Shown one piece after another: positions 10,893 through 59,500 of a DNA stretch of 64,000 nucleotides. The DNA is from Comamonadaceae bacterium PBBC1 (GTDB lineage Bacteria; Pseudomonadota; Gammaproteobacteria; Burkholderiales; Burkholderiaceae_C), in the NCBI GenBank assembly GCA_002256145.1, contig NKIP01000003.1, forward strand, positions 124,001-188,000, given 5' to 3'. The first letter of the stretch is position 1. Each line of letters starts with the position of its first letter. The translations under genes were made by a program, and so were the position numbers. The notes beneath the pieces are model-generated. The model was not told where the DNA came from. It saw only the letters and a program-made list of their open reading frames with translations, and ran no database searches.

Positions 10893-12560
10893 TCAGGCCT
10901 GTTCGCCCACTTGCCCCAAGGCACGGGCCAGGGCCGTTTGCAGCCGGGCGCTGTCCAGGCTGCGCCAGCGGGCCAGCACATGCTGGTCGGGGCGCAGCAA
11001 ATAAGTGGTGCCGGGCTGGGCGTCGTAGCGCTTGGCCATCCAGCCTTGTGTGTCCACCAAGACTCGGAAGCCGGGCACCTGCAGGGCCTGGCGAGACACG
11101 ATCAGGCTGTCCACTGGCACCGAGTTTTGCTTCAGGGCTTGCAGGGTGGCCAGCGTCTGGGCATCGGGCGCAGCATCCACAAAGTGCAAAACCGCAAAGC
11201 CGCGCCCCACTTGGTCGAGCAGCCAGGCGTCTTGTCCGTCCACTTGCACGGGTGCATCGTCCATCGGTGCGCCGGGCACCATCTGGCCTTCAAACGCATC
11301 GGCGTCGGGGGTGTTGAGCACCGAGTCGGTCAGGAAAGACGGCATGGACAAGCGGCCCGAATTGACCAGCTTGCGTGCAAACGGGTGGTGCTTGGCCAGC
11401 GCCAGCACCTGGTTGCGGAAGGTCTTGCTGGTGCGGCTCTTGGGCGTGATGAAGTCGGTCGAGCGGGTCGAGTTCATGATGTTCTCGTCGGCTGCAAACT
11501 GCCGGTCCATCGCGTAGGTGTCGAGCAGCTTTTCGCTGGCCTGGCCCTTGATGACCAAGCCCAGCTTCCACATCAGATCGTCCGCGTCCTGAAAGCCTGA
11601 GTTGGCCCCGCGTGCGCCAAAAGGTGAGACTTGGTGCGCCGCGTCGCCCACAAACAGCACACGGCCGTGGCGAAAATCGGTCATGCGGCGGCACTGGAAG
11701 GTGTAGATGCTGACCCACTCCAGCTCAAACGGCCGCTCGTCGCCCAGCATGGCCTGCAGGCGCGGGATGACTTTTTCGGGCTTCTTTTCTTCTTCGGGGT
11801 CGGCGTCCCAGCCGAGCTGAAAGTCGATGCGCCAGACGTTGTTGCTTTGCTTGTGCAGCAGCACGCTTTGGTTGGGGTGAAAGGGCGGGTCGAACCAGAA
11901 CCAGCGCTCGGCGGGGTAGTCGGCTTTCATGATCACGTCGGCGATCAAAAAGCGGTCCTGAAACACCCGGCCTTCGATGTCCAGCCCCAAGTGGCGACGG
12001 ATCGGGCTGCGTGCACCGTCGGCCACCACCAGCCAGTCGGCCTCGATGTCAAAGTGGCCTTCGGGCGTTTCCACCGTCAGCGTGGCGTGGTCGTCCTGGC
12101 GCGTCACCGCCGTCACCTTGTGCTGCCAGCGGATGTCGGCCCCCAATTCGAGGGCGCGGGCAATGAGCATCTCCTCGACGTGGTATTGCTGCAGGTTGAT
12201 CATGCCGGGGCGCTTGTGGCCCGCATCGGGCACCAGATTGAACTGGTAGACCTCGTCTTCTTCCAAAAAGGTGCGGCCGATGTTCCAGCTCACGCCCAAG
12301 CCGCAGGCCTCGTCGGCAATGCCCAGGCGGTCCAGAATTTCGAGCGAGCGCTTGGCGTAACACACCGCCCGCGAGCCAACCGAGACGGTCTTGTCGTCGT
12401 CCAGCACCAGCACGTCCAAGCCCTGCAAACGCGCATCGATGGCCGCCGCCAAGCCCACCGGGCCTGCGCCAATCACGATCAGCGGTTTGCGCTGCGGCGG
12501 TGTGGCCATCAGGTCGGCAGGCGACTTGTAGGGATAAATCGGGTTGACGTAAGCACCCAT
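10893..12560 (-). CDS. FAD-dependent hydroxylase, MhpA-like (class A flavoprotein monooxygenase)
   Basis: 555 residues from the ATG at 12560, preceded by GGAG. Domains: N-terminal FAD Rossmann motif GAGPVGLAAAIDARLQGLDV, the DGARSPIRRHLG (DG) motif in the middle, the second FAD motif GDAAHQVSPFGARGANSGFQ, and a C-terminal thioredoxin-like region (about the last 130 residues). This is the architecture of 3-(3-hydroxyphenyl)propionate hydroxylase and related phenolic ring hydroxylases. The actual substrate is unknown. It is divergent from a GntR regulator with palindromic sites between them, and linked to the DUF2783 gene downstream, so it is probably induced by its substrate through that regulator. 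Confidence 0.88.
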   Translation of the reverse strand: MGAYVNPIYPYKSPADLMATPPQRKPLIVIGAGPVGLAAAIDARLQGLDVLVLDDDKTVSVGSRAVCYAKRSLEILDRLGIADEACGLGVSWNIGRTFLEEDEVYQFNLVPDAGHKRPGMINLQQYHVEEMLIARALELGADIRWQHKVTAVTRQDDHATLTVETPEGHFDIEADWLVVADGARSPIRRHLGLDIEGRVFQDRFLIADVIMKADYPAERWFWFDPPFHPNQSVLLHKQSNNVWRIDFQLGWDADPEEEKKPEKVIPRLQAMLGDERPFELEWVSIYTFQCRRMTDFRHGRVLFVGDAAHQVSPFGARGANSGFQDADDLMWKLGLVIKGQASEKLLDTYAMDRQFAADENIMNSTRSTDFITPKSRTSKTFRNQVLALAKHHPFARKLVNSGRLSMPSFLTDSVLNTPDADAFEGQMVPGAPMDDAPVQVDGQDAWLLDQVGRGFAVLHFVDAAPDAQTLATLQALKQNSVPVDSLIVSRQALQVPGFRVLVDTQGWMAKRYDAQPGTTYLLRPDQHVLARWRSLDSARLQTALARALGQVGEQA

Positions 12561-12610
12561 GTGCACAGCTCCAAATTGGTCAAAAAGCACCCTGTGGTGC
12601 CCAGACCGTA

Positions 12611-12652
12611 ATTTACCATTGATAAATCGGTTTACCTAAACGTAATTTTAGG
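12611..12652. promoter_or_regulatory. two palindromes in the hydroxylase/GntR divergent promoter region
   Basis: ATTTA-N7-TAAAT (12611-12627) and CCTAAA-N6-TTTAGG (12635-12652) lie close together in an AT-rich patch just upstream of the hydroxylase start. Their position suits operators for the divergently encoded GntR/FCD regulator or core promoter elements of the hydroxylase. Not confirmed. Confidence 0.4.
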
Positions 12653-12684
12653 CCTTGAGGGCTCAGCGTTCAGCGTGGTGTGTT

Positions 12685-12710
12685 GAACGCCCAACGCCCA
12701 ACGCCCAACG
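12685..12710. repeat. short tandem repeat in the divergent promoter region
   Basis: The heptamer AACGCCC is repeated three times without gaps, followed by a partial fourth copy. It lies between the two palindromes and the GntR start. Could vary in copy number by slippage. Confidence 0.8.
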
Positions 12711-12763
12711 ACACCTGTTTGACAGCACCCCGTTGCATGGTCCGTTATGCTTGAACTTGTTTC

Positions 12764-12774
12764 TTGTATGACAA
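12764..12774. promoter_or_regulatory. candidate GntR/FCD operator
   Basis: TTGT-ATG-ACAA is a short palindrome of the type bound by FadR-subfamily GntR regulators. It lies five bases upstream of the regulator's own ATG, a position suited to autorepression. Confidence 0.4.
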
Positions 12775-12778
12775 CTCC

Positions 12779-13552
12779 ATGAGTCAACACTTCACCCCTG
12801 TTTCCAGCGGTGCCCGTTTGTCCGATCAGGTGGCCGAGCAATTGAGCGCCGAGATCAAGCAAGGTCGTTTGGCACCGGGCGACAAACTGCCCACCGAGGC
12901 GCGACTGGTCGAGCAGTTCGCCGTCAGCCGCACCGTGGTGCGCGAGGCGGTGTCGCGACTCAAATCGCTGGGCTTGGTGGATTCGCGCCAAGGCAGTGGG
13001 GTGTTTGTGAGTGCGCAGCAGCCTTTTGCGCCCCTGAATTTCGAAGCCCGGCACGCCGCTTCGCAAGAGGCGGTGGTTCAGATCGTGGAGGTGCGCCGCG
13101 CCCTGGAGGCCGAGGTGGCGGCGCTGGCGGCCGAGCGGCGCAGCGCCAGCGACTTGCTGGCCATCGAGCAGGCGGTCCAGGCGCTGGACCAAGCGGTGCA
13201 GTCGGGTGGTGATGGCGTGGCCGAGGACGTGAATTTTCACCGCGCCATTGCCGAGGCCACGCGCAATCCATTTTTGATCCAGACGCTGGGTTACCTGAGC
13301 CAGTTTTTGCACGGGGCCACCCAGGTGACCCGGGCCAACGAGGCCCGGCGCGGTGACTTTGCGGCCGCTGTGCGCAGCGAGCACCAGGCCATCTTGCAAG
13401 CCGTGCAGGCGGGCGATCCCGAGCGGGCACGCGAAGCCGCTTTTGCCCACATGGGCAACGCCATCGGCCGCATTCGCAAAGCCGATCCGGTGTTCTGGGT
13501 GCAAGAAGGCGAGCGGCTGGCGCAGCCCCTGGTCAAGGGGCTGCAGGGCTGA
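12779..13552 (+). CDS. GntR-family regulator, FadR/FCD subfamily
   Basis: 257 residues from the ATG at 12779; a TTG start 15 bases upstream is less likely because it falls inside a palindrome. Residues about 12-75 form the winged helix (KLPTEARLVEQFAVSRTVVR, then SRQGSGVFV), and the rest is an all-helical FCD domain with the metal/ligand residues D and H in EDVNFHRAIAEATRNP. FCD regulators respond to carboxylic acids and related metabolites. The gene is divergent from the MhpA-like hydroxylase and convergent with a Bug-type binding protein, so it probably controls this locus. Confidence 0.88.
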   Translation: MSQHFTPVSSGARLSDQVAEQLSAEIKQGRLAPGDKLPTEARLVEQFAVSRTVVREAVSRLKSLGLVDSRQGSGVFVSAQQPFAPLNFEARHAASQEAVVQIVEVRRALEAEVAALAAERRSASDLLAIEQAVQALDQAVQSGGDGVAEDVNFHRAIAEATRNPFLIQTLGYLSQFLHGATQVTRANEARRGDFAAAVRSEHQAILQAVQAGDPERAREAAFAHMGNAIGRIRKADPVFWVQEGERLAQPLVKGLQG

Positions 13553-13553
13553 G

Positions 13554-14573
13554 TTACTCAGCCTTGATGTTGGCCGCCTTGACCACCGCCGCATAGCGCG
13601 ACAGGTCACGCGCCATGTCGCGGCCAAACTTCTCGGGGCCACCCGGGCTGGCGGTGATGCCCAAGGTGTTCAGGCGCTCGCGCACGGCCGGGTCGTTCAA
13701 GACCACATTCAGCTCGGTGTTGAGTTTGTCCACAATCGCCCGGGGTGTTTTGGCCGGGGCCAGCAAACCGACCCAAGAGTTGATGTCGAAATCGGCCACA
13801 CCCGCTTCGATGAAGGTCGGCACATCGGGCATGGACGGGGCGCGTTGTGCGCTGGACACGGCCACCGCGTGCAGCTTGCCCGACTTGACGTGCGAAATCG
13901 CCCCCGCCACGGCGGTGTAGACCAGCGGAATGTTGCCGCCCATCACATCGATCATGGCCTGGCCACCGCCTTTGTAGGGGATGTGCGTCAGGTTGGCCCC
14001 CGTGCGCTGCTTGAGCAATTCACCCGCAATGTGGGGTGTGCCGCCCGTGCCGGAGGTGCCGTACGACAGGCCGCCCGACTGTGTCTTGGACAGGGCGATC
14101 ACTTCCTGCAGCGTCTTGGCCTTCACGCCGGGGTGCGCCACCAAAATCAAAATCGCATCGCCAATTTTGCCGATGGGGGCAAAGTCTTTGGCGGTGTCAA
14201 AACCCACTTTGGGAAACACATGGGGGTTGATCACCATCGTGCCGTCAAAGCCCAAGAGCAAGGTGTAGCCATCGGGTTCGGCCGTGGCCACCATTTGTGT
14301 GCCGATGTTGCCCGAGGCACCGGGTTTGTTGTCCACGATCACCTGCTGGCCCAAGCGCTTGGACAGCTGCTCGGCAATCAGGCGGCCGCTGGTGTCGGTC
14401 ACGCCGCCGGTCGCAAAGGGCACCACCAGGCGAATGGGTTTGGCGGGGTAGGCTGCTTGGGCAGCGGCTGTGCCAGCGCTCAGGGCCAAGCCGCCGCAGG
14501 CAGCGGCCACCAAGCCTGTGCTCAGCGCGGCTTTGAGCCATTGGCGTCGGGGTGTTGGGGTCTTCTGGGTCAT
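13554..14573 (-). CDS. Bug/TctC-type tripartite tricarboxylate transporter substrate-binding protein
   Basis: 339 residues from the ATG at 14573, preceded by GGAGACAACG. The N terminus has a twin-arginine-like signal (TPRRQWLKAALSTG ... AAAQA). The mature protein begins with the family signature YPAKPIRLVVPFATGG and continues with GASGNIGTQMVATAEPDGYT. Bug proteins are periplasmic receptors for carboxylates and other small molecules; Burkholderiales carry many without adjacent tctAB membrane genes, as here. It is followed upstream by an ICL/PEP-mutase-family gene on the same strand (28 bases apart), which suggests a shared substrate. Confidence 0.9.
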   Translation of the reverse strand: MTQKTPTPRRQWLKAALSTGLVAAACGGLALSAGTAAAQAAYPAKPIRLVVPFATGGVTDTSGRLIAEQLSKRLGQQVIVDNKPGASGNIGTQMVATAEPDGYTLLLGFDGTMVINPHVFPKVGFDTAKDFAPIGKIGDAILILVAHPGVKAKTLQEVIALSKTQSGGLSYGTSGTGGTPHIAGELLKQRTGANLTHIPYKGGGQAMIDVMGGNIPLVYTAVAGAISHVKSGKLHAVAVSSAQRAPSMPDVPTFIEAGVADFDINSWVGLLAPAKTPRAIVDKLNTELNVVLNDPAVRERLNTLGITASPGGPEKFGRDMARDLSRYAAVVKAANIKAE

Positions 14574-14601
14574 CGTTGTCTCCAATGGGTTTGTGGCTGA
14601 A

Positions 14602-15474
14602 TCAATCGGTTTCAGCGTAGCGCTTTTCAAAAGCCCACACGTCTTCAAAACCCATGAGCTTTGTCAGGTCGGCAAAGTCGTACAAAGGCGTGCTGCCCTG
14701 GGCCGAAGAGCCGGTGTCTTTGAACTGCTGGTAAACCTGCGTCATGGCCTGCACGCCCGCCAGCAAGGCGGTCACCGGGAAGATGGCGATCTTGTAGCCC
14801 AGCGCTTCCAGCTCTGGCTTCGTCAGCACCGGGGTGCGGCCTTTTTCGACCATGTTGGCCACCAGCGGCACGTCAAAGCTTTGGCCGATGCGGCGCATTT
14901 CTTCTTCGGACTCGGGCGACTCGACAAACAAGATGTCGGCACCGGCTTTGGCGTAAGCCTCGGCCCGGCGCAGCGCTTCATCCAGGCCCAGGGTGGTGCG
15001 GGCGTCGGTGCGGGCGATGATCAAGAAGTCTTTGGACTCGCGCGAGTCCACTGCCACCTGGATCTTGCGCACCATGTCGGCCATGGGGATGACGCGGCGG
15101 CCTGGCGTGTGGCCGCATTTTTTGGGGAACTCCTGGTCTTCAAGCTGGATGGCGCAAGCGCCCGCCGCCTCGTAACCCCGGATGGTGTGGCGCATGTTGA
15201 GCAGGCCGCCGTAGCCGGTGTCGGCATCGGCAATCAAGGGCGTGCGGGCCATGCCCGCCATGGCCGTGACGCGGCCCACCATGTCGCTGTAGGTGGCCAA
15301 GCCCGCATCGGGCAAGCCCATGTGCGAGGCCACGGTGCCGTAGCCGGTCATGTACAGCGCATCAAAGCCAAAGCTGTCGGCCAGGCGCAGCGAGACCATG
15401 TCGAACACACCAGGGGCGACCACCAGGCCGGGTTGGTTCAAACGCGCACGCAGCGCAGAGGTTTTGGGGTTCAT
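14602..15474 (-). CDS. isocitrate lyase/PEP mutase superfamily protein (2-methylisocitrate-lyase-like)
   Basis: 290 residues from the ATG at 15474. The TIM-barrel family motifs are clear: Mg-binding Asp residues in ADADTGYGG (about 82-90), the LEDQEFPKKCGH loop with the catalytic Cys120, and a later FVESPES. Members cleave or rearrange C-C or C-P bonds of 2-hydroxy or 2-methyl di/tricarboxylic acids (methylisocitrate lyase, oxaloacetate decarboxylase, carboxyphosphonoenolpyruvate mutase). The KKCGH loop supports a lyase activity rather than PEP mutase. The pairing with a Bug receptor and SDR hints at organic acid catabolism; the exact substrate is unknown. Confidence 0.86.
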   Translation of the reverse strand: MNPKTSALRARLNQPGLVVAPGVFDMVSLRLADSFGFDALYMTGYGTVASHMGLPDAGLATYSDMVGRVTAMAGMARTPLIADADTGYGGLLNMRHTIRGYEAAGACAIQLEDQEFPKKCGHTPGRRVIPMADMVRKIQVAVDSRESKDFLIIARTDARTTLGLDEALRRAEAYAKAGADILFVESPESEEEMRRIGQSFDVPLVANMVEKGRTPVLTKPELEALGYKIAIFPVTALLAGVQAMTQVYQQFKDTGSSAQGSTPLYDFADLTKLMGFEDVWAFEKRYAETD

Positions 15475-15544
15475 GGAGCAGGACTTGTGCAAGAGTGATT
15501 AAAGTGACAGGGTCAGAATTTTTGATTTCATCAGAGAAAACACC

Positions 15545-28959: not shown

Positions 28960-29928
28960 TCAGTCGATCCTGGCCCCCGAGGCCTTGACCACCTGCGCCA
29001 TGCGCACATAGTCGGCGGCCAGCAGCTTGCCAAAATCGGCGTTGCTCATGTCGCGGGGCTCAATGCCTTGCTTGTCCAAGCGGGCCAACACGGCCGGGTC
29101 TTTGAGCAGCTTGCTGACGGCTGCATGGATGCGGTTGGCTTCGGCGGCCGGCACAGCGGCAGGGCCCAAGAAACCGAACCACGAATCAAACTGGTAACCC
29201 GGCAAGCCGCTCTCGGCAATGGTGGGCAAGTCGGGCAGGTATTTGCTGCGCTGGGGTGAGGTCACGCCCAGCAAGCGGATGCGGCTGTCCTTGACAAATG
29301 ACAGTGCACCGATGCTGGCCGCAATCACCGCTTGGGCGCGACCCGACAGCACTTCGTTGATGGCTTCGCCCGTGGCCTTGAGCGGGATGTGCACCACGTC
29401 CGTGCCCGACAGACCCGTGAAATAGGCCATGGCCAAGTGGGTGGCACTGCCCACACCAGCGCTGGCGTAGTTCATCTTGCCGGGGTTGGCCTTGGCGTGG
29501 CGGATGAATTCGGCCGCGTTTTTGGCGGGCACATCGGGGTGCACCATCAGCACATAGCTGGCGCTGCCAATGTGGGCCAGGGGCGCAAAGTCTTTTTGCG
29601 GGTCATAAGCGAGCTTGGTGTAGAGCGATCCGGCAATGTTGTGGCTGGCCGCTGCGGCCACCATCACCGTGCCATCGGCCTCGGCGCGGGCCACATAGCC
29701 GGTGCCAATCGTGCCGCCCGCGCCTGCGCGGTTTTCCACAATCACCGTTTGGCCCAAGGCAGCGCCCATTTCTTGCGACAAGGCTCGGGCCAGTGTGTCT
29801 TGCACACCCCCCGCAGCGAAAGGCACCACAATGCGCACCGTTTTGGTGGATTGCGCTTGCGCCAGACCCACGGCCGACAGCAAAGCTGTGCCCAAAGTGG
29901 CCGTCAAAATTTCTCGCCGTTGCATCAT
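28960..29928 (-). CDS. Bug/TctC-type substrate-binding protein
   Basis: 322 residues from the ATG at 29928 (AAGGAAAC upstream). Signal peptide RREILTATLGTALLSAVGLA, cleavage near AQA, then KTVRIVVPFAAGG and GAGGTIGTGYVARAEADGTV, the family hallmarks. A periplasmic receptor for an unknown small carboxylate or similar. It follows the ArgE-like gene by 56 bases on the same strand, so its ligand may be an N-acyl amino acid or related compound. No tctA/tctB in the window. Confidence 0.9.
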   Translation of the reverse strand: MMQRREILTATLGTALLSAVGLAQAQSTKTVRIVVPFAAGGVQDTLARALSQEMGAALGQTVIVENRAGAGGTIGTGYVARAEADGTVMVAAAASHNIAGSLYTKLAYDPQKDFAPLAHIGSASYVLMVHPDVPAKNAAEFIRHAKANPGKMNYASAGVGSATHLAMAYFTGLSGTDVVHIPLKATGEAINEVLSGRAQAVIAASIGALSFVKDSRIRLLGVTSPQRSKYLPDLPTIAESGLPGYQFDSWFGFLGPAAVPAAEANRIHAAVSKLLKDPAVLARLDKQGIEPRDMSNADFGKLLAADYVRMAQVVKASGARID

Positions 29929-29984
29929 GAGAGTTTCCTTGTGGGGTTCCGAAAAGTTCAAGCTGTCTAAAAATCAGTCCACGA

Positions 29985-31217
29985 TCAGGCCACACAGACC
30001 TGGTCGGCCAAGCGGCGCATGAAGCGCTCGCACCAGGCCAGCTGCTCCAACGTGACCCATTCGTTGGGCTGGTGCGCCTGCGCGATGTGGCCGGGGCCGC
30101 AGACAATGGTGGGCACACCCGCCTGGTGGAACAGAGCAGCTTCCGTGCCAAACGAGACCTTGCCCGCGCCACTGGCCGGGTCCACCTCGGCGCAGTCAAA
30201 ACACAGCTGCGCGATCTCGCTGTCGGCCGCCGTGGCAAAACCGGGCAACACCGATTTGAGTTCGTGGGTGATGCCTGTGTCCGGCGCGACCGCTTGCATG
30301 GCGGGCACCAGACCCTCGCCAAAGGCCTGGGCCCGTGCAAACAGGTCTTCGGGCGTGTTCATGTGGTGGTGGCGGATTTCCCAAGTCACCTCGCACTGGC
30401 GCGGGATGATGTTGAGCGCGGTGCCACCTGCGATCACACCGGTGTGGATGGTGGTGTGCGGCACATCGTAAATCGGGTCGAAAGGCCCGTTTTGCACCAG
30501 CTCGCGGTGCATGCTTTTCAGGTTCGCCACAAATTCACAAGCAATTTCGACCGCGTTCACACCCAGCGGCGTGAGCGAAGAATGCGCCTCAAAACCGTGC
30601 ACCGTGGTTTTGTACGAATGCTTGCCTTTGTGGGCAATCACCACCTGCATGCCGGTGGGCTCGCCCACGATGCAGCCTGCGGGCTTGAAACCCTGGGCCT
30701 GCATGTCGGCGATCATGCGTCGCACGCCGATGCAGCCGACTTCTTCGTCGTAGCTGAAGGCCAGGTGGATCGGGCGCTTGAGTTTTCTCTTCAGCAGCTC
30801 GGGCACCATCATCAAACAGGTGGCCCCAAAGCTCTTCATGTCGGTCACGCCCCGGCCGTACATCTTGTCGCCTTGGATCACGACTTTGAACGGGTCGGTG
30901 TCCCAGGGCTGGCCGTCCACCGGCACCACATCGGTGTGGCCCGACAGCACCAGGCCGCCCACTTTGGTTTCGCCGTCGTGCGCAGGCAGGGTGGCCCAGA
31001 GGTTGGCTTTTTGCCCGCTGTCGTCGTAGGTGCGGCTGCAAGTGATGCCCAGATCGTTCAAGTAAGCCTCGGTCCAGTCCAGCAAAGCCAGGTTGCTGTC
31101 GCGCGAGACGGTGGCAAAGGCGATCCATTTTTCGATCAGGGGCAAGGCGGTCAGGTCGGCGGCCTGGACGGGCGCTTTTTCGGACGTCAGGGCGGCATGA
31201 GAAACAGGGGCGTTCAT
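29985..31217 (-). CDS. argE: acetylornithine deacetylase (M20 family, ArgE)
   Basis: 410 residues from the ATG at 31217 (GGAG upstream). M20 metallopeptidase residues: first zinc ligand in LSGHTDVVPVDGQPW, GRGVTDMKSFG, catalytic and metal Glu in SYDEEVGCIGVRR, EPTGMQVVIAHKG, and the C-terminal metal His in CGPGHIAQAHQPNEW. The length and the HIAQAHQPNEW ending fit ArgE, which hydrolyses N-acetylornithine in arginine synthesis; related M20 deacylases on other N-acyl amino acids are possible. Operon partner of a Bug receptor. Confidence 0.88.
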   Translation of the reverse strand: MNAPVSHAALTSEKAPVQAADLTALPLIEKWIAFATVSRDSNLALLDWTEAYLNDLGITCSRTYDDSGQKANLWATLPAHDGETKVGGLVLSGHTDVVPVDGQPWDTDPFKVVIQGDKMYGRGVTDMKSFGATCLMMVPELLKRKLKRPIHLAFSYDEEVGCIGVRRMIADMQAQGFKPAGCIVGEPTGMQVVIAHKGKHSYKTTVHGFEAHSSLTPLGVNAVEIACEFVANLKSMHRELVQNGPFDPIYDVPHTTIHTGVIAGGTALNIIPRQCEVTWEIRHHHMNTPEDLFARAQAFGEGLVPAMQAVAPDTGITHELKSVLPGFATAADSEIAQLCFDCAEVDPASGAGKVSFGTEAALFHQAGVPTIVCGPGHIAQAHQPNEWVTLEQLAWCERFMRRLADQVCVA

Positions 31218-31382
31218 GGGAGGACTCCAATCCAAAAATAAAGGGCGCTCAGACCCGATCTGGATTTGATCTTACAGGGCCACCCGGCCGCCAAGACCTG
31301 CGTCCGCGTCACCTTGCCGACATGGCCATGGCGGATGTGGTCCTAAAGTAAGCCGTCATCCACCCCTGAACTTGGAGCTTTC

Positions 31383-31700
31383 ATGGCCATTTACGAACTG
31401 CGCACCTATTCTGTCATCGTCGGGAAAATGCCCGAAATCGTGTCGCATTACAAAAACGAAGGCTGGCCTGTGCTGGCCAAGCACCCCCAAAAACTGGTGG
31501 GTTATTTCACCGGCGACGTGGGTGCGCTGAACCAACTCATCCACGTCTGGAAATTTGACGACGACAACGACCGCCGCGCTTTTTGGGCCGGTGTGTACGG
31601 CGACGCCGAATTCATGGCTTTTGCGGCCAAGATTCGCCCTCTGATTCACGAACAGACAAACAAGCTGATGCTGTCCGCGCCCTGGGGCCCACAGCCCTGA
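31383..31700 (+). CDS. NIPSNAP family protein
   Basis: 105 residues beginning MAIYELRTYSVIVGKMPEIV, the NIPSNAP signature of a ferredoxin-like alpha/beta fold, with HVWKFDDDNDR in the middle. GGAG lies eight bases upstream of the ATG. Cytoplasmic, no catalytic motif; bacterial members occur in catabolic clusters but their role is unknown. Single gene between an ArgE unit and a convergent lipoprotein. Confidence 0.88.
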   Translation: MAIYELRTYSVIVGKMPEIVSHYKNEGWPVLAKHPQKLVGYFTGDVGALNQLIHVWKFDDDNDRRAFWAGVYGDAEFMAFAAKIRPLIHEQTNKLMLSAPWGPQP

Positions 31701-32246: not shown

Positions 32247-32966
32247 TCATTGAATCAGGTAACCACCGTCCACAGGCAAGACCACGCCCGTGACAAAACG
32301 TGCGGCCGGGCTGGCCAAAAACAGCACCGGATCGGCCACGTCTTCGGGCTGGCCCCAGCGGCCCATGGGCGTGCGGCCCACAATTTGGGCGTTGCGTGCC
32401 GGGTCGTCCTGCAAGGCTTGGGTCAAGGGCGTCGCGATCCAGCCCGGGGCCACGGCGTTCACCCGGATGCCGTCGGCCGCATAGGCGATGGCGAGCGACT
32501 TGGTCAGTTGCGCCACACCGCCCTTGCTGGCGCTGTAGCCTGGCGTGAGGCCACCCCCAAAAAAACTCAGCATGGAAGCGGTGTTGACGATGCAGCCTTG
32601 GCGTGCCTTGAGGCCTGCACGCGCCGCAGCGCACACCCGCATGGTGCCGTTGAGGTTGATGTCGACGGTTTGGGCAAACACCTCGGGGTCGTGCTCGGCG
32701 TTGCGCTGGATGATGCCGGCGCAGTTGACCAACACATCGAGCGCGGTGTATTCACCCAGATGTGCCCGCACATGCTCTGCGTGACGCACGTCCATCACAT
32801 GGAAAGCGATCAGGCGGTTGGCGGGCAAAGCCTGAGCAGCTTCCACTTCGGCCTTGGTGGCCCCCGTGGCGGTGACACTGGCCCCCGTGGCCGCAAAAGC
32901 CCGTGCAATGGCTGCGCCAATGCCGCTGGTGCCGCCGGTGATGAAGACTTGGCGTTCTTTGTCCAT
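32247..32966 (-). CDS. SDR family oxidoreductase (complete catalytic site)
   Basis: 239 residues from the ATG at 32966 (GGGAGA upstream). NAD(P) motif TGGTSGIG, NCAG, and intact catalytic residues Ser in VNTASMLSFF and Tyr/Lys in PGYSASKGG. C-terminal TGVVLPVDGGYLIQ is standard. Probably an NAD(P)-dependent alcohol/ketone dehydrogenase. It lies 80 bases downstream of the reductive-dehalogenase-like gene on the same strand and may be cotranscribed with it. Substrate unknown. Confidence 0.88.
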   Translation of the reverse strand: MDKERQVFITGGTSGIGAAIARAFAATGASVTATGATKAEVEAAQALPANRLIAFHVMDVRHAEHVRAHLGEYTALDVLVNCAGIIQRNAEHDPEVFAQTVDINLNGTMRVCAAARAGLKARQGCIVNTASMLSFFGGGLTPGYSASKGGVAQLTKSLAIAYAADGIRVNAVAPGWIATPLTQALQDDPARNAQIVGRTPMGRWGQPEDVADPVLFLASPAARFVTGVVLPVDGGYLIQ

Positions 32967-33046: not shown

Positions 33047-36000
33047 TCACATGTCAAGGACGATTAAACCCTGAGGATGCTGGGCGCGTGAGCAGCACAA
33101 GATGATTTTGTGCTGCCGCTCTTTTTGGCTGAGCACAAAGTCGCGGTGCTCCACCGCATCAGAGGCTTGTGCATCGTAAGTCAGGGCGCACACACCACAC
33201 AGGCCGTCGCTGCATTTGACGCTGACGCCCACGCCCGCCTCGGCCAGCACCTCGGTGGCGCTGCGCTCAGCGGGCACCTGCAGGCGGCGGCCCGACTTTT
33301 GCAGCAGCAGCTCAAAGGGCTGGTTCACCCAGGCGTCGGCCTCGGGCACGCTGAAGTATTCGCGGTGCAAGGCGTCTGGCGGCCAGCCGTGCGCAGCCGC
33401 CGCTTCGAACACACCGTCCATGAAGCGTGGCGCACCGCAGGTATACACATGCTGGCCCGGCGCGTAGTCGGGCAAGAGCTGCATCAGCTCAGCCCGCTGG
33501 CCTTCGTCTTTGAAGTGGAACTGCACCCGGTGGCCCCAGGGGGCCTGGGCCAGGTCTTTCAAAAAGCCCGCTGTGGTGCGGCTGGCCGCGCTGTAGTGAA
33601 AATCAAACGGTTTGCCCAAAGCGTGTAGCCGATGCGCCATGGCGATCATGGGCGTCACACCAATGCCCCCGGCCATCAGCCAGCTGTGCGTGGCGTCTTC
33701 TTGCAGCGCAAAGTGGTTAACCGGGCGCGACACAAACACCTTACGTCCTTCGCGAAAGGCCCGGTGCATGAGCGCCGAGCCGCCGCGCCCGCCGGACTCG
33801 GGCGGCTCGCGCAGCACGCCCAGCACATAGCGGCTGCGGTCCGCCGGGTCACCCGCCAGGCTGTAGGGGCGCTGGTATTCGGGGGCGATCACCACGTCAA
33901 TGTGCCCGCCTGCCGTGAAGGGCGGCAGCTCGCGGCCATCGGGTGCTTTGAACTCGTAACGCGCCAGGCCCTCGGCCATCTCTTCACGTTTGTGCAACAC
34001 CACCGGAAACACGGGCGGTTCGGCCGGCAAGGGCTGCGGCCCAGGGGCCAAGCCCTCGGTCTGGCCTGCCGCCAAACGGGCTTGGTATTGCGCGGGCGTG
34101 AGCAGCGCTTGGTAGCGGGCAATGCCCTCTTCGCGGTTGACCGGATACGTGACCGGATAGGGTTGCGGCATTTTGTCGGCAGGATACACGGCCAGGGTCT
34201 GGTCTTCGTAGCGCAGGTCCAGGTCTTTTTGCAGGGTGCGCTGGTGGGTTTGCGCCGCTTGCACATAGCGGCCCGTGCGCTTGTCCAGCTCGATGTCCCA
34301 CCACCACTTCTTGACCGGGTTGATGCTGCCGCGATCGAGCAAGTCATCGAGCCGCGCCAGCGCCGGTGCAGCGGCGGGCAGCTTCATGGCCACTTGTCGC
34401 CACAGGCTGTCGGCCAGCAAGCCTTCCAGATTCCAGGGGCAGGTTTTCATGCAGCGGCCGCACATGCCGCCCGCCGCGTTGGTGATGCGGTAGCGGGCGC
34501 ATTTTTCGGCGTCGCTTTTCCAGATTTCGTAGCCGTTGTACATCAGCTTGGGGCCTGCGGTGATGGCCCCGGACGGGCATTCACGGGCGCACTTGTTGCA
34601 GCTTTCGCAAAAGCTTTGCAGGCCAAAGTCGATGGGCCGGTCGGGGGCCATGGGCATGTCGGTGGTGACGCTGCCACTTTTCAGGCGCGGGCCCAAAAAC
34701 GGGTTGAGGATCACCTCGCCAATGCGGCTGACTTCGCCTAGGCCCGACAGCAATAACAAGGGCGGCTGCAGCACGTCGCCGTCCAGCACCGAATGCACCC
34801 GGGCCGAATAACCCAGCCGCCGAATCTGCTCGGCCAAAATGCCGCCCATCAGCGAAAAGCGCAAATAAGCCCGCATGCTTTGCGCCACCGAAATCCAGTC
34901 GTCGCCGCTGGCGCCTTCCATGGTTTCGTGGCCCTGGTCGATCAGCAGGTTCAGCGCGTTGGCGTGGTAGGCGGGCATGGGGTTGCCACCGGCATCGTGC
35001 GAGTAATAGGCCCACTCGGGCACGGCGCACAGGCCCACCGCGTCCACACCCAAATAGTATGAGGCCGCTTTCAGCTTGTCGGCGTTGCGTTGGGGGTCGA
35101 GCGTGCTGGCGGCCACCGGGCCACGCGCCGGGCCAAACTGCAAGAGCAGCAAAGCGCCCAGCGCCCTGCGGGCACAAGCCCCGATGGGGCTTTTCATCAC
35201 GTAGTGCGCGTTCTTGGCGTCGTCTTGCACCGACTTGCCCAGGTCGCCAAACAAGGCCCGCGCAAAAAAGTCGGCCCGCTTCGGGAATCGAGGCACCCGG
35301 TCGTGGTCAATGAAGGTGGTGGGCGTGTCCTGGCGCTTGAGCGTTTCAAACGGGTGCGCCCCTTGGCGAAACTCGCGCCGGGCATAGGCGTCGCGGTGAA
35401 ACGCGCTCTTGAACGTGCCCAGCCCCAACCACCAGGCCGGGCCGTGGCTTTGCCAGCGGTTTTGTTGAGGGTCGAGCGCCTGATCGGGGGCGATGGCCAG
35501 CGTGGTGCTGACAGCGGCCAGGGCGTAGCGCTGGCCCACATAGGGGTTGCCGCCATCGGGCAAGGTCAGGCCTGCGGCCAGGGCCAGGCGGGCCAAGTCC
35601 ACATCGCTGCAGCTGGCGCTGTGGGCGCGGGCCTCGTGGCCCAGCATGCGCAAATAACTCGACAGCAGCACGGCAGTTTGCGCGGCCAGAACGGCGGCGC
35701 GGGGTTCTTGGGTGCCCGCCAGCCAGTCGCAGCCGGGCTCATCGGGTTTCGGGTCCCGCGCAAATTCGACCAGGATCACGATGGCGTGGCTGTGGTGCGC
35801 AATCGGCTCATGCACCGTGCGGGCCGACTCCAGCACATCGGCCAGGATCATGTCCATGCCGGCCGCAAAACTGGCGGGCTGGCTTTGGGCCAACTCTTCG
35901 CCCAAGGCGGGTACGGCGGGGTTGCGGATCGGTTCGGCCAGCCAAGCGCTGGCGGGCAGGGCACAAATGCCCATCATCGAGGCGTCAAAGTAATAACCCG

Positions 36001-36265
36001 CAGCCTTCAGGTGCCGGGCGCGTTCGTCGGGCTCGGCCGGAATCTCCCCCATTTGCGGGTTCACGGCCCCGTCGCGCACCAGGTCGAACATGGCCATGTA
36101 ACGCGCCATGGCGTGGGCCATCGACTCGGGGTCATCGTGCTCAAAACGCAGCACTTGCATGGGCGGCACGGCCCTGTCGTCGGGTGTGGCCACCGTGCGG
36201 CGCAGGCGCTCCAGCGGGTAAGGCCCCAAGTGCACGGGGCGGTCGCGGTAAGAAAACAAGCGCAT
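33047..36265 (-). CDS. self-sufficient reductive-dehalogenase-like fusion protein (RdhA + flavin/NAD(P)H reductase + [2Fe-2S])
   Basis: 1072 residues from the ATG at 36265 (AGGGGG upstream); a TTG nine codons earlier is less likely. In numbering that includes those nine codons: residues 90-290 and 405-550 are two similar halves; the second matches RdhA cobalamin-domain consensus (GLGEVSRIGEVILNPFLGPR, TTDMPMAPDRPIDFG). Two 4Fe-4S sites follow: C562, C565, C568, C572 and C598, C611, C614, C618. Residues 765-965 are a ferredoxin-reductase module (RPYSLAGDP; GGIGVTPMIAMAHRL) and 990-1081 a plant-type 2Fe-2S domain (C1027, C1032, C1035, C1066/67). No Tat signal and no rdhB, so cytoplasmic, like aerobic BhbA and NpRdhA that use NAD(P)H to debrominate hydroxybenzoates. 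Cobalamin dependence and substrate are inferred. Confidence 0.88.
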   Translation of the reverse strand: MRLFSYRDRPVHLGPYPLERLRRTVATPDDRAVPPMQVLRFEHDDPESMAHAMARYMAMFDLVRDGAVNPQMGEIPAEPDERARHLKAAGYYFDASMMGICALPASAWLAEPIRNPAVPALGEELAQSQPASFAAGMDMILADVLESARTVHEPIAHHSHAIVILVEFARDPKPDEPGCDWLAGTQEPRAAVLAAQTAVLLSSYLRMLGHEARAHSASCSDVDLARLALAAGLTLPDGGNPYVGQRYALAAVSTTLAIAPDQALDPQQNRWQSHGPAWWLGLGTFKSAFHRDAYARREFRQGAHPFETLKRQDTPTTFIDHDRVPRFPKRADFFARALFGDLGKSVQDDAKNAHYVMKSPIGACARRALGALLLLQFGPARGPVAASTLDPQRNADKLKAASYYLGVDAVGLCAVPEWAYYSHDAGGNPMPAYHANALNLLIDQGHETMEGASGDDWISVAQSMRAYLRFSLMGGILAEQIRRLGYSARVHSVLDGDVLQPPLLLLSGLGEVSRIGEVILNPFLGPRLKSGSVTTDMPMAPDRPIDFGLQSFCESCNKCARECPSGAITAGPKLMYNGYEIWKSDAEKCARYRITNAAGGMCGRCMKTCPWNLEGLLADSLWRQVAMKLPAAAPALARLDDLLDRGSINPVKKWWWDIELDKRTGRYVQAAQTHQRTLQKDLDLRYEDQTLAVYPADKMPQPYPVTYPVNREEGIARYQALLTPAQYQARLAAGQTEGLAPGPQPLPAEPPVFPVVLHKREEMAEGLARYEFKAPDGRELPPFTAGGHIDVVIAPEYQRPYSLAGDPADRSRYVLGVLREPPESGGRGGSALMHRAFREGRKVFVSRPVNHFALQEDATHSWLMAGGIGVTPMIAMAHRLHALGKPFDFHYSAASRTTAGFLKDLAQAPWGHRVQFHFKDEGQRAELMQLLPDYAPGQHVYTCGAPRFMDGVFEAAAAHGWPPDALHREYFSVPEADAWVNQPFELLLQKSGRRLQVPAERSATEVLAEAGVGVSVKCSDGLCGVCALTYDAQASDAVEHRDFVLSQKERQHKIILCCSRAQHPQGLIVLDM

Positions 36266-36282
36266 GTGCAAACCCCCTGGGT

Positions 36283-37410
36283 TCAGCCCCAACGCGCTGG
36301 CGAGAGCATGTCAGCCGTCAGGCCAAAAGCCGCCACCGCCTCAGGCACGCCTTGGCCCATGGCCAGCGCCGCACAGGTCTGCCCCATGGCCGCCGAAGTC
36401 TGGATGCCGTAGCCGCCCTGCGCCGCCACCCAAAAAAAGCCTGGGGCCTGCGGGTCAAAACCGCCCACCAAATCGCCATCGGCCACAAAGGAGCGCAAAC
36501 CGGCCCAGGTGCGCGTCGGGCGGCGAATCTGCAAGGTGGTCATCTCTTCAATCCGGTGGATGGCCAGGGCAATGTCCATCTCTTCGGGCTGCACGTCGTG
36601 CGGCGGCACCGGGTCCACGTTGGCGGGCGAGGCCAGCAACATGCCCGCATCGGGTTTCATGTACCAACTTTCGTCCAGACTGGCCACCATGGGCCAATGG
36701 CTGCACAGCAGGCCGGGGGGCGGCGCAAAGGTCAAGGCCGAGCGTCGCTTGGGCTGCAAGCCCACGGGGCGCACGCCCGCCAGCCGGGCCACTTCGTCAG
36801 CCCAAGCTCCGGCAGCATTGAGCACCACGGGCGCTTCAAATGTCTGCCCCGCCGCCTGCACGCGCCACACCCCGTGGCTGTGCTGCAAGGCCGTGACTTG
36901 CGCGTCGCACACCAGCTGTCCGCCGTGGCGTCGAATGCCGCGCAAATAGCCTTGGTGGATGCTGTGCACATCCATGTCCATGGCGTCGGGTTCGAACACC
37001 GCACCGATGATTTTTTCGGGGCGCAGCACCGGCACCAAGGCACAGGCTTGGGCCATGTCCAGCAAGCGGACATGGGGCGTGGCCTGAGAAGAGGTGGCCC
37101 AGTCATCGGCCAGCAGCTGATCTTGACCCGGTGTGGCCACCATCATGGCCCCACGGGGTGACAAGACGGGGTGGTCGCTGAAGCCCGGTGGCGGTGACTG
37201 CAAAAACGCCCGACTGGCCCGCGTCAGCGCCCGCACCTGCGGTGTGCCGTAGTTCTCCATGAACAAGGCCGCCGAGCGCCCCGTGGCGTGGTAGCCCGGC
37301 TGCGATTCACGTTCGAGCAAAACCACCCGTCCGTGAGGGGCCAGCCAATGGCCAACCGAGGCTGCGGCCACGCCGCCGCCAATGATGAGAAAGTCTGCGG
37401 TGGTGTTCAT
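36283..37410 (-). CDS. FAD-dependent oxidoreductase, DAO (DadA-like) family
   Basis: 375 residues from the ATG at 37410. N-terminal FAD motif IIGGGVAAASVGHWLAPHGR, DAO-family ATGRSAALFMENYG, VLNAAGAWADEVARLAG, and a C-terminal ADGDLVGGFDPQAPGFFWVA plus GGYGIQTSAAMG. Oxidises an amine, amino acid or hydroxy acid with FAD. It stops 17 bases before the reductive-dehalogenase-like gene and starts 17 bases after the lipoprotein methyltransferase, so the three are almost certainly one transcript. Its link with a dehalogenase is not obvious; it could treat the dehalogenated product. Confidence 0.85.
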   Translation of the reverse strand: MNTTADFLIIGGGVAAASVGHWLAPHGRVVLLERESQPGYHATGRSAALFMENYGTPQVRALTRASRAFLQSPPPGFSDHPVLSPRGAMMVATPGQDQLLADDWATSSQATPHVRLLDMAQACALVPVLRPEKIIGAVFEPDAMDMDVHSIHQGYLRGIRRHGGQLVCDAQVTALQHSHGVWRVQAAGQTFEAPVVLNAAGAWADEVARLAGVRPVGLQPKRRSALTFAPPPGLLCSHWPMVASLDESWYMKPDAGMLLASPANVDPVPPHDVQPEEMDIALAIHRIEEMTTLQIRRPTRTWAGLRSFVADGDLVGGFDPQAPGFFWVAAQGGYGIQTSAAMGQTCAALAMGQGVPEAVAAFGLTADMLSPARWG

Positions 37411-56536: not shown

Positions 56537-59500
56537 TCAGCGTTTGGCTTGTCGACCCTGATCAGCGGGGAAACAAATTTCCATGGCCGAATCCACGACT
56601 CGCTCACAAATGCAGTCTTCCAGTTTTTGGGGCGTGCACGCCTGAGCTGGCTGGGTGCGAATGCTGTAGTTGACTTGTCCCATGGCCGCACCCACACCAC
56701 CCAAGCCCCCAAAACCTTGAAAGTAAAGTCGGCTGAAAGTCGGCTTGGCGGCCTGGCTGTCCGTCACCACCAAGTTCGACACGGTGGGCGCCGTGATGTT
56801 GGCTTTGAGCACCACCGGTGACCAGTCGTAATTGCTGGCACGACCTCCGTGATCGCCATTGCTCAGGCTGTAAACCACTTCAACCGCTTTGTCTGTGCCT
56901 GGCGCTGCATCGGCAAAACGGCCTGTCACTGCGCTGATGTTGAGCGACTCGGCTCCCATCAAACCGGTGATGCGCCCCGCCTTGACCTGCGCGACGGTGT
57001 TGCCATCGGCCAACTTGTCAGACACCGTGGTGCCCACAAAACCCAGCATCGCTTTTTGAATGCGCAAATCGGCTTGCTGCAAACGGACCGTGTAATTTTT
57101 GACATCGGCTCCGCTGACCGACAAATTGGAGGCATAGCTGCCCGCGTCGCGCCCCTGTGCCGCACCCGTCACCACAACGTCATCACCGGCTATGAATCCC
57201 TCTTGACGTGGGGCACTTTGGATTTGTGTGCTGCCGTTGTATGTGACGCTTTGAGCCTGCGCCGAGACCCAGGCATCTTTGGGCGTGATCGTCAATTTTC
57301 CATGGCCATAGGTGATGTCGTAGTTGCCCGCATCCGCGCCGGAAACCATCAGGGCTGAGGTGTATTGACCCACTTGACGCCCACTGGGCAAACCGCCAAA
57401 GATCAAATCGTCACCCACGACAAAACCGCTGCCCTGAGTGCCCACCAGACTCTGCGTCTGACCGTTGTAAACCACACTTTGGTCCAGTGAGGACAAACTC
57501 GCGGCTTTTTTGCCAATCTGCAGGGCCGCATTGTTGAAGGTGATGGTGTAGTTGCCCACATCGCGCCCGGCGGCTGTCAGCGCAGAGGCATAACTGCCCA
57601 CCTGACGTCCACTGGCCAAACCACCGGCTTGCACGTCATCACCCGACACAAAACCGCTGAGCACGGCTGCACTTTGAGATTGGGTTTGGCCGTTGTAGGT
57701 CACCGACATGGCGGAGGCACTGATGCTGGCTTGCGCCCGGTCAATCACCCCCTCCACACTGTTGATGTACTCGATGCTGTAGTTGCCCGTGACATCGGCC
57801 AAGGTGCCGTCGATCAGGCGAACGCCCTTGACGGTCACGGTTTTGCCTGTGCCCGCATTTTTATCCGTGAAGCTCAAAACGCCCGCTTGATCGATTTTGT
57901 CGCCTGCCTCAGCTCCGGCCAACACGCCCACCAACACGCCCGTGCCATTGGCCAAAGGGGTGCCATCGTAGGTTTTGCGAACGGCGGTGGCCTTGATTTT
58001 CAAGGGGGCAGGGGTGATGTTGGCCGTCGTCAGGGACTGCAAAGTGATGTTGTAGTTGCCAACATCCTGGCCATCCAAAGTCGTGCTGATGACAACCGGT
58101 TTGGACTGGCCCACATGGCGCGTATCAAAACTGCCCGTGGCGGAAAGGGTCACCACATCATCCTGAACCAAACCGTCAAAGATGGCTGCGCCGGTGACCA
58201 CTTTGGCTTGGGTGTTGCCGTCATAGACCTTGTTGGCCGCCGTCAGGCCGCTGATGTGGAGGTCTTTCTTGGAGATGTTGGCAGTGGTGGTGGATTGATC
58301 GGTGATGGTGTAGTTGCCCAGATCGGCACCCGTTAAGGTGTTGCTGAGCGTGACTGTTTTGCTTTCGCCAACATTCTTGTCGCTGAACGTGCCGATGGAG
58401 GCGACAGACAAATCGTCACCAACAACCATGTCCTTGAAAACAACACCAACGACAGAAACAGCCGCAACGTTGTTGCCGTCGTAAGTCTTGTTGGCCGCAG
58501 TGATGCCGCTCAGTGTGATGGCTTTCTTGCTGATGTCGGCCGTGGTGTTGGCTTGATCAGCGATGCTGTAGTTGCCCAGATCGGCACCGCCCAAGGTATT
58601 CACCAGGGTCACCGTTTTGCCCGTGGCCACATTCTTGTCGTCGAACTTGCCAGTGGAGGCCACTGTCAGTTCATCACCTTCGACCATGTCCTTGAACACG
58701 GCACTCAAAACTGAAACAGCCGCAACGTTGCTGCCGTCATAGGTCTTACTTGCTGCGGTGATGCCGTTCAAGCTGATGGCCTTCTTGCTGATGTCGGCCG
58801 TGGTACTGGCTTGGTCGGTGATGGCGTAGTTGCCCAGATCGGCACCACTGAAGGTGTTGGCCAAAGTGACCGTTTTGCCTGTGGCCGCATTCTTGTCGCT
58901 GAACGTGCCAGTCGAGGTCACTTTCAGCTCATCACCCACAACCATGTTGTTGAACACGGCATCAAAAACTGAAACAGTCGCAGCTTTGCTGCCGTCATAG
59001 GTCTTGCTTGCTGCGGTGATGCCGCTCAGTGTGATGGCCTTCTTGCTGATGTCGGCCGTGGTACTGACTTGATCGGTGATGGTGTAGTTGCCCAGATCAG
59101 CACCGCCCAAGGTATTCACCAAAGTGACCGTTTTGCCAGTAGCCGCATTCTTGTCGCTGAACGTGCCCGTGGAAGCAACGGACAAATCATCGCCACTGAC
59201 CTTATCCCCGAAGTTGGCGTTGGTGACAGAAACAGCAGCAACGTTGTTGCCGTCGTACGTCTTGCTGGCCGCAGTGATGCCACTCAGTGTGATGGCCTTC
59301 TTGCTGATGTCGGCCGTGGTCGTGACCTGATCAGTGATGGCGTAGTTGCCCAGATCAGCACCGCCTAAGGTATTCACCAAAGTGACCGTTTTGCCTGCGG
59401 CCGCATTCTTGTCGCTGAACGTGCCTGTGGAGGCAACGGACAAATCATCGCCACTGACCTTACCCCCGAAGTTGGCGCTGGTGACCGAAACAGTAGCAAC

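Follow-up and report, generated by a model that had tools for sequence, protein, structure and literature searches.

Catabolic reductive dehalogenases (RdhAs) characterised to date work on ortho-halogenated phenols, and a vestigial duplication of the corrinoid-binding domain is their hallmark (PMC10463259). In NpRdhA of Nitratireductor pacificus the first copy of that domain binds no cobalamin, and for fused-type RdhAs, JtRdhA of Jhaorihella thermophila included, an insert in the RdhA domain has been described (PMC10463259). JtRdhA turns over bromo- and iodophenols with tight coupling to NADPH, also in air, and chlorinated phenols only inhibit it; NpRdhA, unlike JtRdhA, is implied to reduce chlorinated compounds. 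The same study calls it unclear whether the fused enzymes act on brominated compounds only. PMC13101508 concerns a Roseobacter debrominase. Here we analyse a gene for a fused RdhA in a 64,000-nucleotide stretch of DNA (the window) from Comamonadaceae bacterium PBBC1 (assembly GCA_002256145.1, contig NKIP01000003.1, positions 124,001 to 188,000). This kind of enzyme is already known and the window protein is a further instance of it. Taken as a whole, it is very probably an NADPH-driven, corrinoid-dependent catabolic reductive dehalogenase for ortho-halogenated phenols.

The minus-strand frame from 33047 to 36292 is open over 1081 codons. The ATG at 36265 is the likely start because AGGGGG lies 7 bases upstream of it and because residue 1 then pairs with residue 1 of NpRdhA. 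The gene that begins there (Table 1) is the same as the one delimited by an earlier, sequence-only reading of this DNA. The ratio of nonsynonymous to synonymous substitution rates (dN/dS) over the whole gene is 0.05–0.17 in all five comparisons, and the gene is therefore intact and constrained; in each of the five pairs the RdhA half is under tighter constraint than the reductase half. Purifying selection, as judged from these comparisons, says that the gene is used. By eye, the N-terminus (MRLFSYRDRP...) has no visible signal peptide, although no predictor was run. There is no RdhB gene beside it either, since gaps of only 17 and 80 bases to the flanking genes leave no space for one (RdhB was not searched for genome-wide). 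The earlier claim of a cytoplasmic protein, with neither Tat signal nor RdhB, agrees with both results.

The domain order, cofactor ligands and catalytic residues can be read from sequence and fold, together with the intact, constrained frame and the membership of the fused clade. The NCBIfam RDH profile TIGR02486 matches residues 430–643 with 182.9 bits (cut-off 160.35). Among solved structures, NpRdhA (4ras) matches residues 1–104 and 157–733 with an E value of 1.7e-167, the insert at 105–156 remaining unaligned, and phthalate dioxygenase reductase (2pia) matches residues 754–1069 (E 1.6e-52). PceA (4uqu) matches over the core (E 5.2e-28) and the epoxyqueuosine reductase (QueG) structures weakly (E 0.004–0.005). 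Among Pfam profiles, Fer4_16 (32.7 bits, cut-off 30), Fer4_7 and Fer2 (22.4 bits, cut-off 21) are above their cut-offs. The sequence-only reading had described an RdhA-like half with two 4Fe-4S sites fused to a flavin/NAD(P)H reductase with a 2Fe-2S domain, and this architecture is confirmed. The corrinoid-binding domain is indeed present twice: residues 60–265 align with residues 375–560 (hhalign probability 99.5, 29% identity). The comparison with 4RAS that had been proposed yields the match over residues 1–733 with the insert skipped, and the predicted model resembles NpRdhA over its whole length and 2pia in its C-terminal half. PceA and QueG structures are not among the fold matches listed, which excludes neither. 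Another proposed check, the Pfam profile PF13486, was of no use: it has no match in the protein up to E 1, none in the genome, and 14 control genomes were equally silent. PF13486 appears not to cover the RdhA subfamily to which this protein belongs, and TIGR02486 served as RdhA recogniser in its place.

Residue conservation was judged on a 40-row alignment of fused proteins. All eight 4Fe-4S cysteines and all four 2Fe-2S cysteines are invariant across the 40 rows. The same is true of F334, S463, M464, Y467, K529 and R593, which correspond to F291, S422, M423, Y426, K488 and R552 of NpRdhA. For several of these NpRdhA residues, PMC7565698 assigns roles in holding the substrate and donating a proton.

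Our trees place the window protein in the fused RdhA clade. It stands apart from QueG, the position that the sequence-only reading had named as one that would refute it. The RdhA-core tree has 58 rows and excludes L110, L114 and L118, the last of which is cut by a contig end. In it the window protein stands among fused proteins, in a set of 20 rows that is mainly Burkholderiales (support 94/97). The reductase-free short proteins, including NpRdhA, form one clade of 11 rows (100/100), to which BhbA and its Nitratireductor OM-1 counterpart are joined (95/98) as a pair (96/93). QueG and PceA fall outside on very long branches. We do not trust the root they provide: end and inner branches reach 5–10 changes per column, and the program issued a warning on the long row L092. 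In the tree of the reductase half (49 rows), all 40 fused rows split from nine other reductases (100/99), with BhbA and OM-1 branching first; the nine include the tail of a P450 fusion, and 2pia itself is absent. Both trees would fit a single fusion event, provided that the RdhA tree is rooted on the branch of the short proteins. Profile, structure and tree thus all support the proposed NAD(P)H-driven, corrinoid-dependent class, to which the protein would belong on present evidence.

The sequence-only reading also held that precedents are few and named BhbA and NpRdhA. BhbA is indeed fused. NpRdhA is truncated, has no reductase, aligns only within residues 1–733 and is not self-sufficient (PMC10463259). 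Nor are precedents few: a scan of genome contigs turned up 445 stretches coding for a relative of either half, and in each of the best 80 (L001–L080) the match takes in 1060 or more of the 1072 residues. The fused JtRdhA, moreover, has been purified and studied. The ten nearest relatives (91–97% identity) belong to Limnohabitans, except for one record titled uncultured Burkholderiales. Since G461 is Limnohabitans strain WS1 (the source of L001) and G028 is Limnohabitans sp. Bal53 (L006), the genus group of the window, g1, includes named Limnohabitans. The freshwater-type betaproteobacterium that had been proposed is hence a Limnohabitans-like host. Two further fused RdhAs group with Burkholderiales in spite of their record titles, Bordetella parapertussis (L026) and Candidatus Fonsibacter lacus (L032); wrong labels or mixed content of these metagenome bins are the probable cause.

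Among plasmids, only eight of the 1038 matching records cover at least 80% of the query; among the matches listed, the remaining 52 concern the reductase half only. Nine phage records had matches, all of them short of 80% of the query, and five among the matches listed hit the reductase half only. Matches occurred in 53 of 60 genomes, where most places among those listed correspond to the reductase or 2Fe-2S part only. Two genomes of the same order match with the RdhA core alone (G037:C20:50096-50860 and G045:C97:231638-232252; 35% and 30% identity, frames of 458 and 344 residues), and these are perhaps other RdhA or QueG relatives.

Within the family, TIGR02486 scores of 399 sampled genomes form two groups with a gap between 131 and 48.5 bits. 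Eleven genomes are RdhA-like by score (seven with a frame of fused length, three short and one cut by a contig end), and six of these exceed the curated cut-off. The remaining genomes score at most 48.5 bits, which is the QueG range; the QueG of the window genome, which encodes one RdhA and one QueG, has 27.4 bits. Within the genus, an RdhA gene or fragment is present in 33 of 90 genomes (match E up to 1e-20): 15 complete fused genes, 14 short ones (of which two have a stop scored within the match and one is cut by a contig end), three partial fused ones (G468, G026, G488) and one unclear piece (G472). In none of the 90 genomes do fused and short RdhAs occur together. By our own arithmetic, chance would produce this about 3 times in 100 among independent genomes, but these genomes are not independent. 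The two types may be sorted by lineage or lifestyle.

Two observations on these genus loci deserve mention. The fused copy of G026 (L155:5002-5982) is decayed: its frame starts at the second 4Fe-4S motif and runs on into the reductase half, and the short-chain dehydrogenase (SDR) gene behind it looks intact. At the two of 14 short-type loci that we inspected (L153:2950-6789 in G001 and L154:2178-6921 in G033), the NpRdhA-type gene adjoins a type II haloacid dehalogenase (204.3 and 196.8 bits with TIGR01428, whose cut-off is 125.4); GST-like genes, one or two per locus, stand there as well, with scores below cut-offs. From their gene content, these two loci are a possible organohalide-degradation cluster of lake bacteria.

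The host could supply the cofactor. Its genome has a cobalamin riboswitch (76.7 bits) with genes for a BtuB-like receptor and an ATP-binding cassette (ABC) transporter directly after it. We read this operon as one for vitamin B12 uptake because of the riboswitch and the receptor, and B12 is probably salvaged through it. CobS was not found in the genome, although one family without a match does not establish auxotrophy. Elsewhere the genome encodes a relative of 4-hydroxybenzoate hydroxylase (53% to PobA of Nitratireductor OM-1) and one of LigB (59% to LigB of pBHB), and a dehalogenated hydroxybenzoate could therefore be used. According to PMC13350131, Limnohabitans is facultatively anaerobic and grows better with air.

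By analogy with the studied relatives JtRdhA and NpRdhA, the reaction would proceed in the following way, the mechanism of JtRdhA being the best supported one. NADPH would pass a hydride to FMN, and electrons would move from the 2Fe-2S domain through the two 4Fe-4S clusters to a base-off corrinoid, presumably salvaged by the Btu-like operon. The halogen of an ortho-halogenated phenol would be placed on the cobalt, and the phenol oxygen would be held by Arg593 and Ser463. Tyr467, tuned by Lys529, would donate a proton; halide and phenol would then be released. A product of the 4-hydroxybenzoate type could enter the PobA and protocatechuate 4,5-cleavage route that is apparently encoded in the genome. 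The enzyme would serve catabolism rather than respiration. As substrates, our best guess is 4-hydroxyphenyl acids or phenols that carry bromine or iodine. The protein may dehalogenate a particular natural or man-made aromatic, as the sequence-only reading had proposed; its observation is confirmed and its interpretation partly supported.

A number of results weigh against this picture. At four of eleven active-site positions the protein differs from NpRdhA (K307 to A350, F310 to Y355, P311 to V356 and A419 to V460), the mapping of A350, Y355 and V356 being less sure owing to an alignment gap near NpRdhA 307–311. Because the outer pocket differs in this way, the substrate is not readable from sequence. 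Confidence in the predicted model is low for some blocks of the active core (predicted local distance difference test, pLDDT, of 46–64). The adjoining genes are not aromatic-catabolic, unlike those of BhbA or Nitratireductor OM-1. The uptake operon is ambiguous as well. The BtuB-like receptor has 397 bits to TIGR01779, under the cut-off of 599.7. One protein of the ABC operon is best matched by BtuF with 81.7 bits (cut-off 234) and a second reaches BtuF at 43.5 bits. The permease is about equally close to FhuB and BtuC (180.4 and 178.7 bits), with FhuB and not BtuC on top, and the ATPase is closest to a heme-transporter model, not BtuD. All Btu-like proteins are under the NCBIfam cut-offs.

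One could argue from the pocket that the protein is a corrinoid reductase of the RdhA fold that naturally acts on a non-halogenated phenolic, with dehalogenation as a side activity at most. The outer pocket resembles neither NpRdhA nor BhbA, and beside the dehalogenase in the window no aromatic-catabolic or halogen-related gene was recognised. Fresh water is poor in bromide. The fused relative JtRdhA, in turn, ignores chlorinated phenols (PMC10463259). We nevertheless consider this explanation improbable: in all 40 fused proteins the residues that face the cobalt and donate the proton are those of dehalogenases, and the characterised catabolic RdhAs work on ortho-halophenols (PMC10463259). A stronger competitor, though still an unlikely one, is a true dehalogenase that serves chlorinated natural phenols or detoxification instead of growth on brominated or iodinated phenols. 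It would fit the implied activity of NpRdhA on chlorinated compounds (PMC10463259) and the haloacid dehalogenase and GST-like genes at both inspected short-type loci. However, those clusters belong to the short type and not to that of the window, and JtRdhA, the closer characterised relative in domain layout, is inhibited by chlorophenols.

Two other possibilities can be set aside almost entirely. A relative of QueG, rather than an RdhA, would have the corrinoid and 4Fe-4S core in common with the window protein, which reaches 27.4 bits with the QueG model TIGR00276. That model has a cut-off of 200 and scores 430.7 with the QueG encoded in this genome; the cut-off of the RDH profile is exceeded, and the tree splits QueG from the RdhA rows; this idea is already refuted. 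A respiratory, membrane-attached RdhA is of the same superfamily, as the PceA match over the core attests, and is disfavoured to a similar degree by the lack of a visible export signal and of room for an adjacent RdhB, by the fused NAD(P)H reductase and by the duplicated domain, which is as in the catabolic kind. We favour, with high confidence, a fused catabolic dehalogenase for ortho-halogenated phenols. Much more tentatively, Limnohabitans might use two alternative RdhAs, one self-powered and one with an outside donor, in the ordinary plankton metabolism of natural halogenated phenols in oxygenated lakes. The Y355/V460 pocket might then stand for a substrate class other than that of BhbA, perhaps chlorinated lake phenols. 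If this were true, salvaged vitamin B12 would be tied to halogen cycling in lakes.

Neighbouring genes, called by codon scoring, do not name the substrate, because the set is not aromatic-catabolic and is not kept outside the genus. The upstream gene for a DAO-type oxidoreductase is probably co-transcribed with the dehalogenase. As a standing partner it was rejected: besides the window it is at this place in one of 11 related loci tested (L001, 99%), and a 52% match in L005 came from an over-long query frame and was gone with the trimmed protein. The SDR gene is downstream in all ten Limnohabitans or near loci (L001–L010) and is no obligate partner, being retained in G026 despite the decayed dehalogenase. 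NIPSNAP, the M20 deacylase and the Bug receptor (28960..31700) are neighbours conserved within the genus. No locus of L011–L080, outside Limnohabitans, has the orthologous neighbour set; the non-Limnohabitans loci examined have MarR or LysR regulators or, at BhbA and OM-1, aromatic-ring-cleavage genes. Bug genes are common among these bacteria. A Bug receptor on the same strand within 300 bases occurs in four of 80 loci (L017, L027, L028, L040) and at BhbA, too few for a standing neighbour; 73 of the 80 loci have at least 1.1 kilobases upstream and 75 downstream. Rfam gave no match at gathering score over the window, and thus no known riboswitch at the locus.

Table 1. Features of the predicted dehalogenase gene and its neighbours, in window coordinates.
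Feature	Position	Strand	Remarks
Fused self-sufficient reductive dehalogenase gene (predicted)	33047..36265	-	1072 aa
Probable ribosome-binding site AGGGGG	36273..36278	-	7 bases before ATG 36265; read from sequence
First, vestigial corrinoid-binding domain copy	35474..36076	-	residues about 64-264; hhalign
Fused-subfamily insert	35798..35953	-	residues 105-156; 51-52 residues in 40/40 fused rows
Second, active corrinoid-binding domain copy with S463, M464, Y467, K529	34628..35140	-	residues about 376-546
Two 4Fe-4S motifs, Cys 553/556/559/563 and 589/602/605/609, and R593	34430..34609	-	
Flavin and NAD(P)H module	33344..34018	-	residues 750-974
Plant-type 2Fe-2S domain, Cys 1018/1023/1026/1057	33050..33316	-	residues 984-1072; Fer2
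DAO-type FAD oxidoreductase	36283..37407	-	PF01266 180.5 bits; 17 bases upstream
Short-chain dehydrogenase (SDR)	32247..32966	-	PF13561 193.4 bits; 80 bases downstream
NIPSNAP	31383-31700	+	in 10/10 of L001-L010
M20 deacylase	29985-31235	-	in 8/10 of L001-L010
TctC/Bug receptor	28960-29961	-	ortholog (88% or more) in 8/10 of L001-L010

Two other parts of the window drew our attention. About 18–22 kilobases from the dehalogenase, at 10893-15492, lies a possible second catabolic cluster: a gene resembling FAD aromatic hydroxylases (PRK08132 subfamily, 830.6 bits), one for a regulator with LldR/PdhR as its closest models, and Bug-receptor and methylisocitrate-lyase-like genes whose models score below, or have no, functional cut-off. 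Near the window end, a 2483-codon frame with a strong coding signal (56537-63988, minus strand) perhaps encodes a repetitive surface protein, which is a guess.

The point of interest is the spread of fused RdhA through freshwater Limnohabitans. Dehalogenation that is aerobic and driven by NADPH depends on neither an anaerobic zone nor a partner protein, and each host is therefore a candidate for bromo- or iodophenol turnover in oxygenated water. The genus Limnohabitans is common in lakes and, with RdhA genes or fragments in about a third of the 90 genomes analysed, the ecological claim is testable. The members of this enzyme kind studied so far are from marine and polluted environments; freshwater enzymes whose pocket deviates slightly would directly test whether the fused kind is limited to brominated compounds. 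In the literature searched, which leaves most subscription journals outside its coverage, we found no report of this enzyme in Limnohabitans.

How does the window protein compare with the known systems? By published description, JtRdhA (PMC10463259) has the same order of duplicated-domain RdhA, two 4Fe-4S clusters and phthalate dioxygenase reductase, the RdhA insert and the same set of six active-site residues. It differs in its host, a coastal hot-spring bacterium, and in that its activity is known, whereas the function of the window protein is predicted. BhbA (L102), from plasmid pBHB of Comamonas sp. 7D-2, shares the fused layout, the catalytic residues and 51.7% identity over the whole length. 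However, it sits with Nitratireductor OM-1 on its own branch adjoining the short clade of the RdhA tree, is plasmid-borne next to ligA and an extradiol dioxygenase, and has serines at the positions of both Y355 and V460. NpRdhA (4ras, 6zxu) has the RdhA half, the catalytic residues, the duplicated domain and the fold in common with the window protein, but has neither reductase half nor insert and requires outside electron donors (PMC10463259). Phthalate dioxygenase reductase, finally, matches the C-terminal half in fold and sequence. It is a stand-alone protein, whereas the reductases of fused RdhAs branch by themselves in the 49-row tree, from which 2pia is absent.

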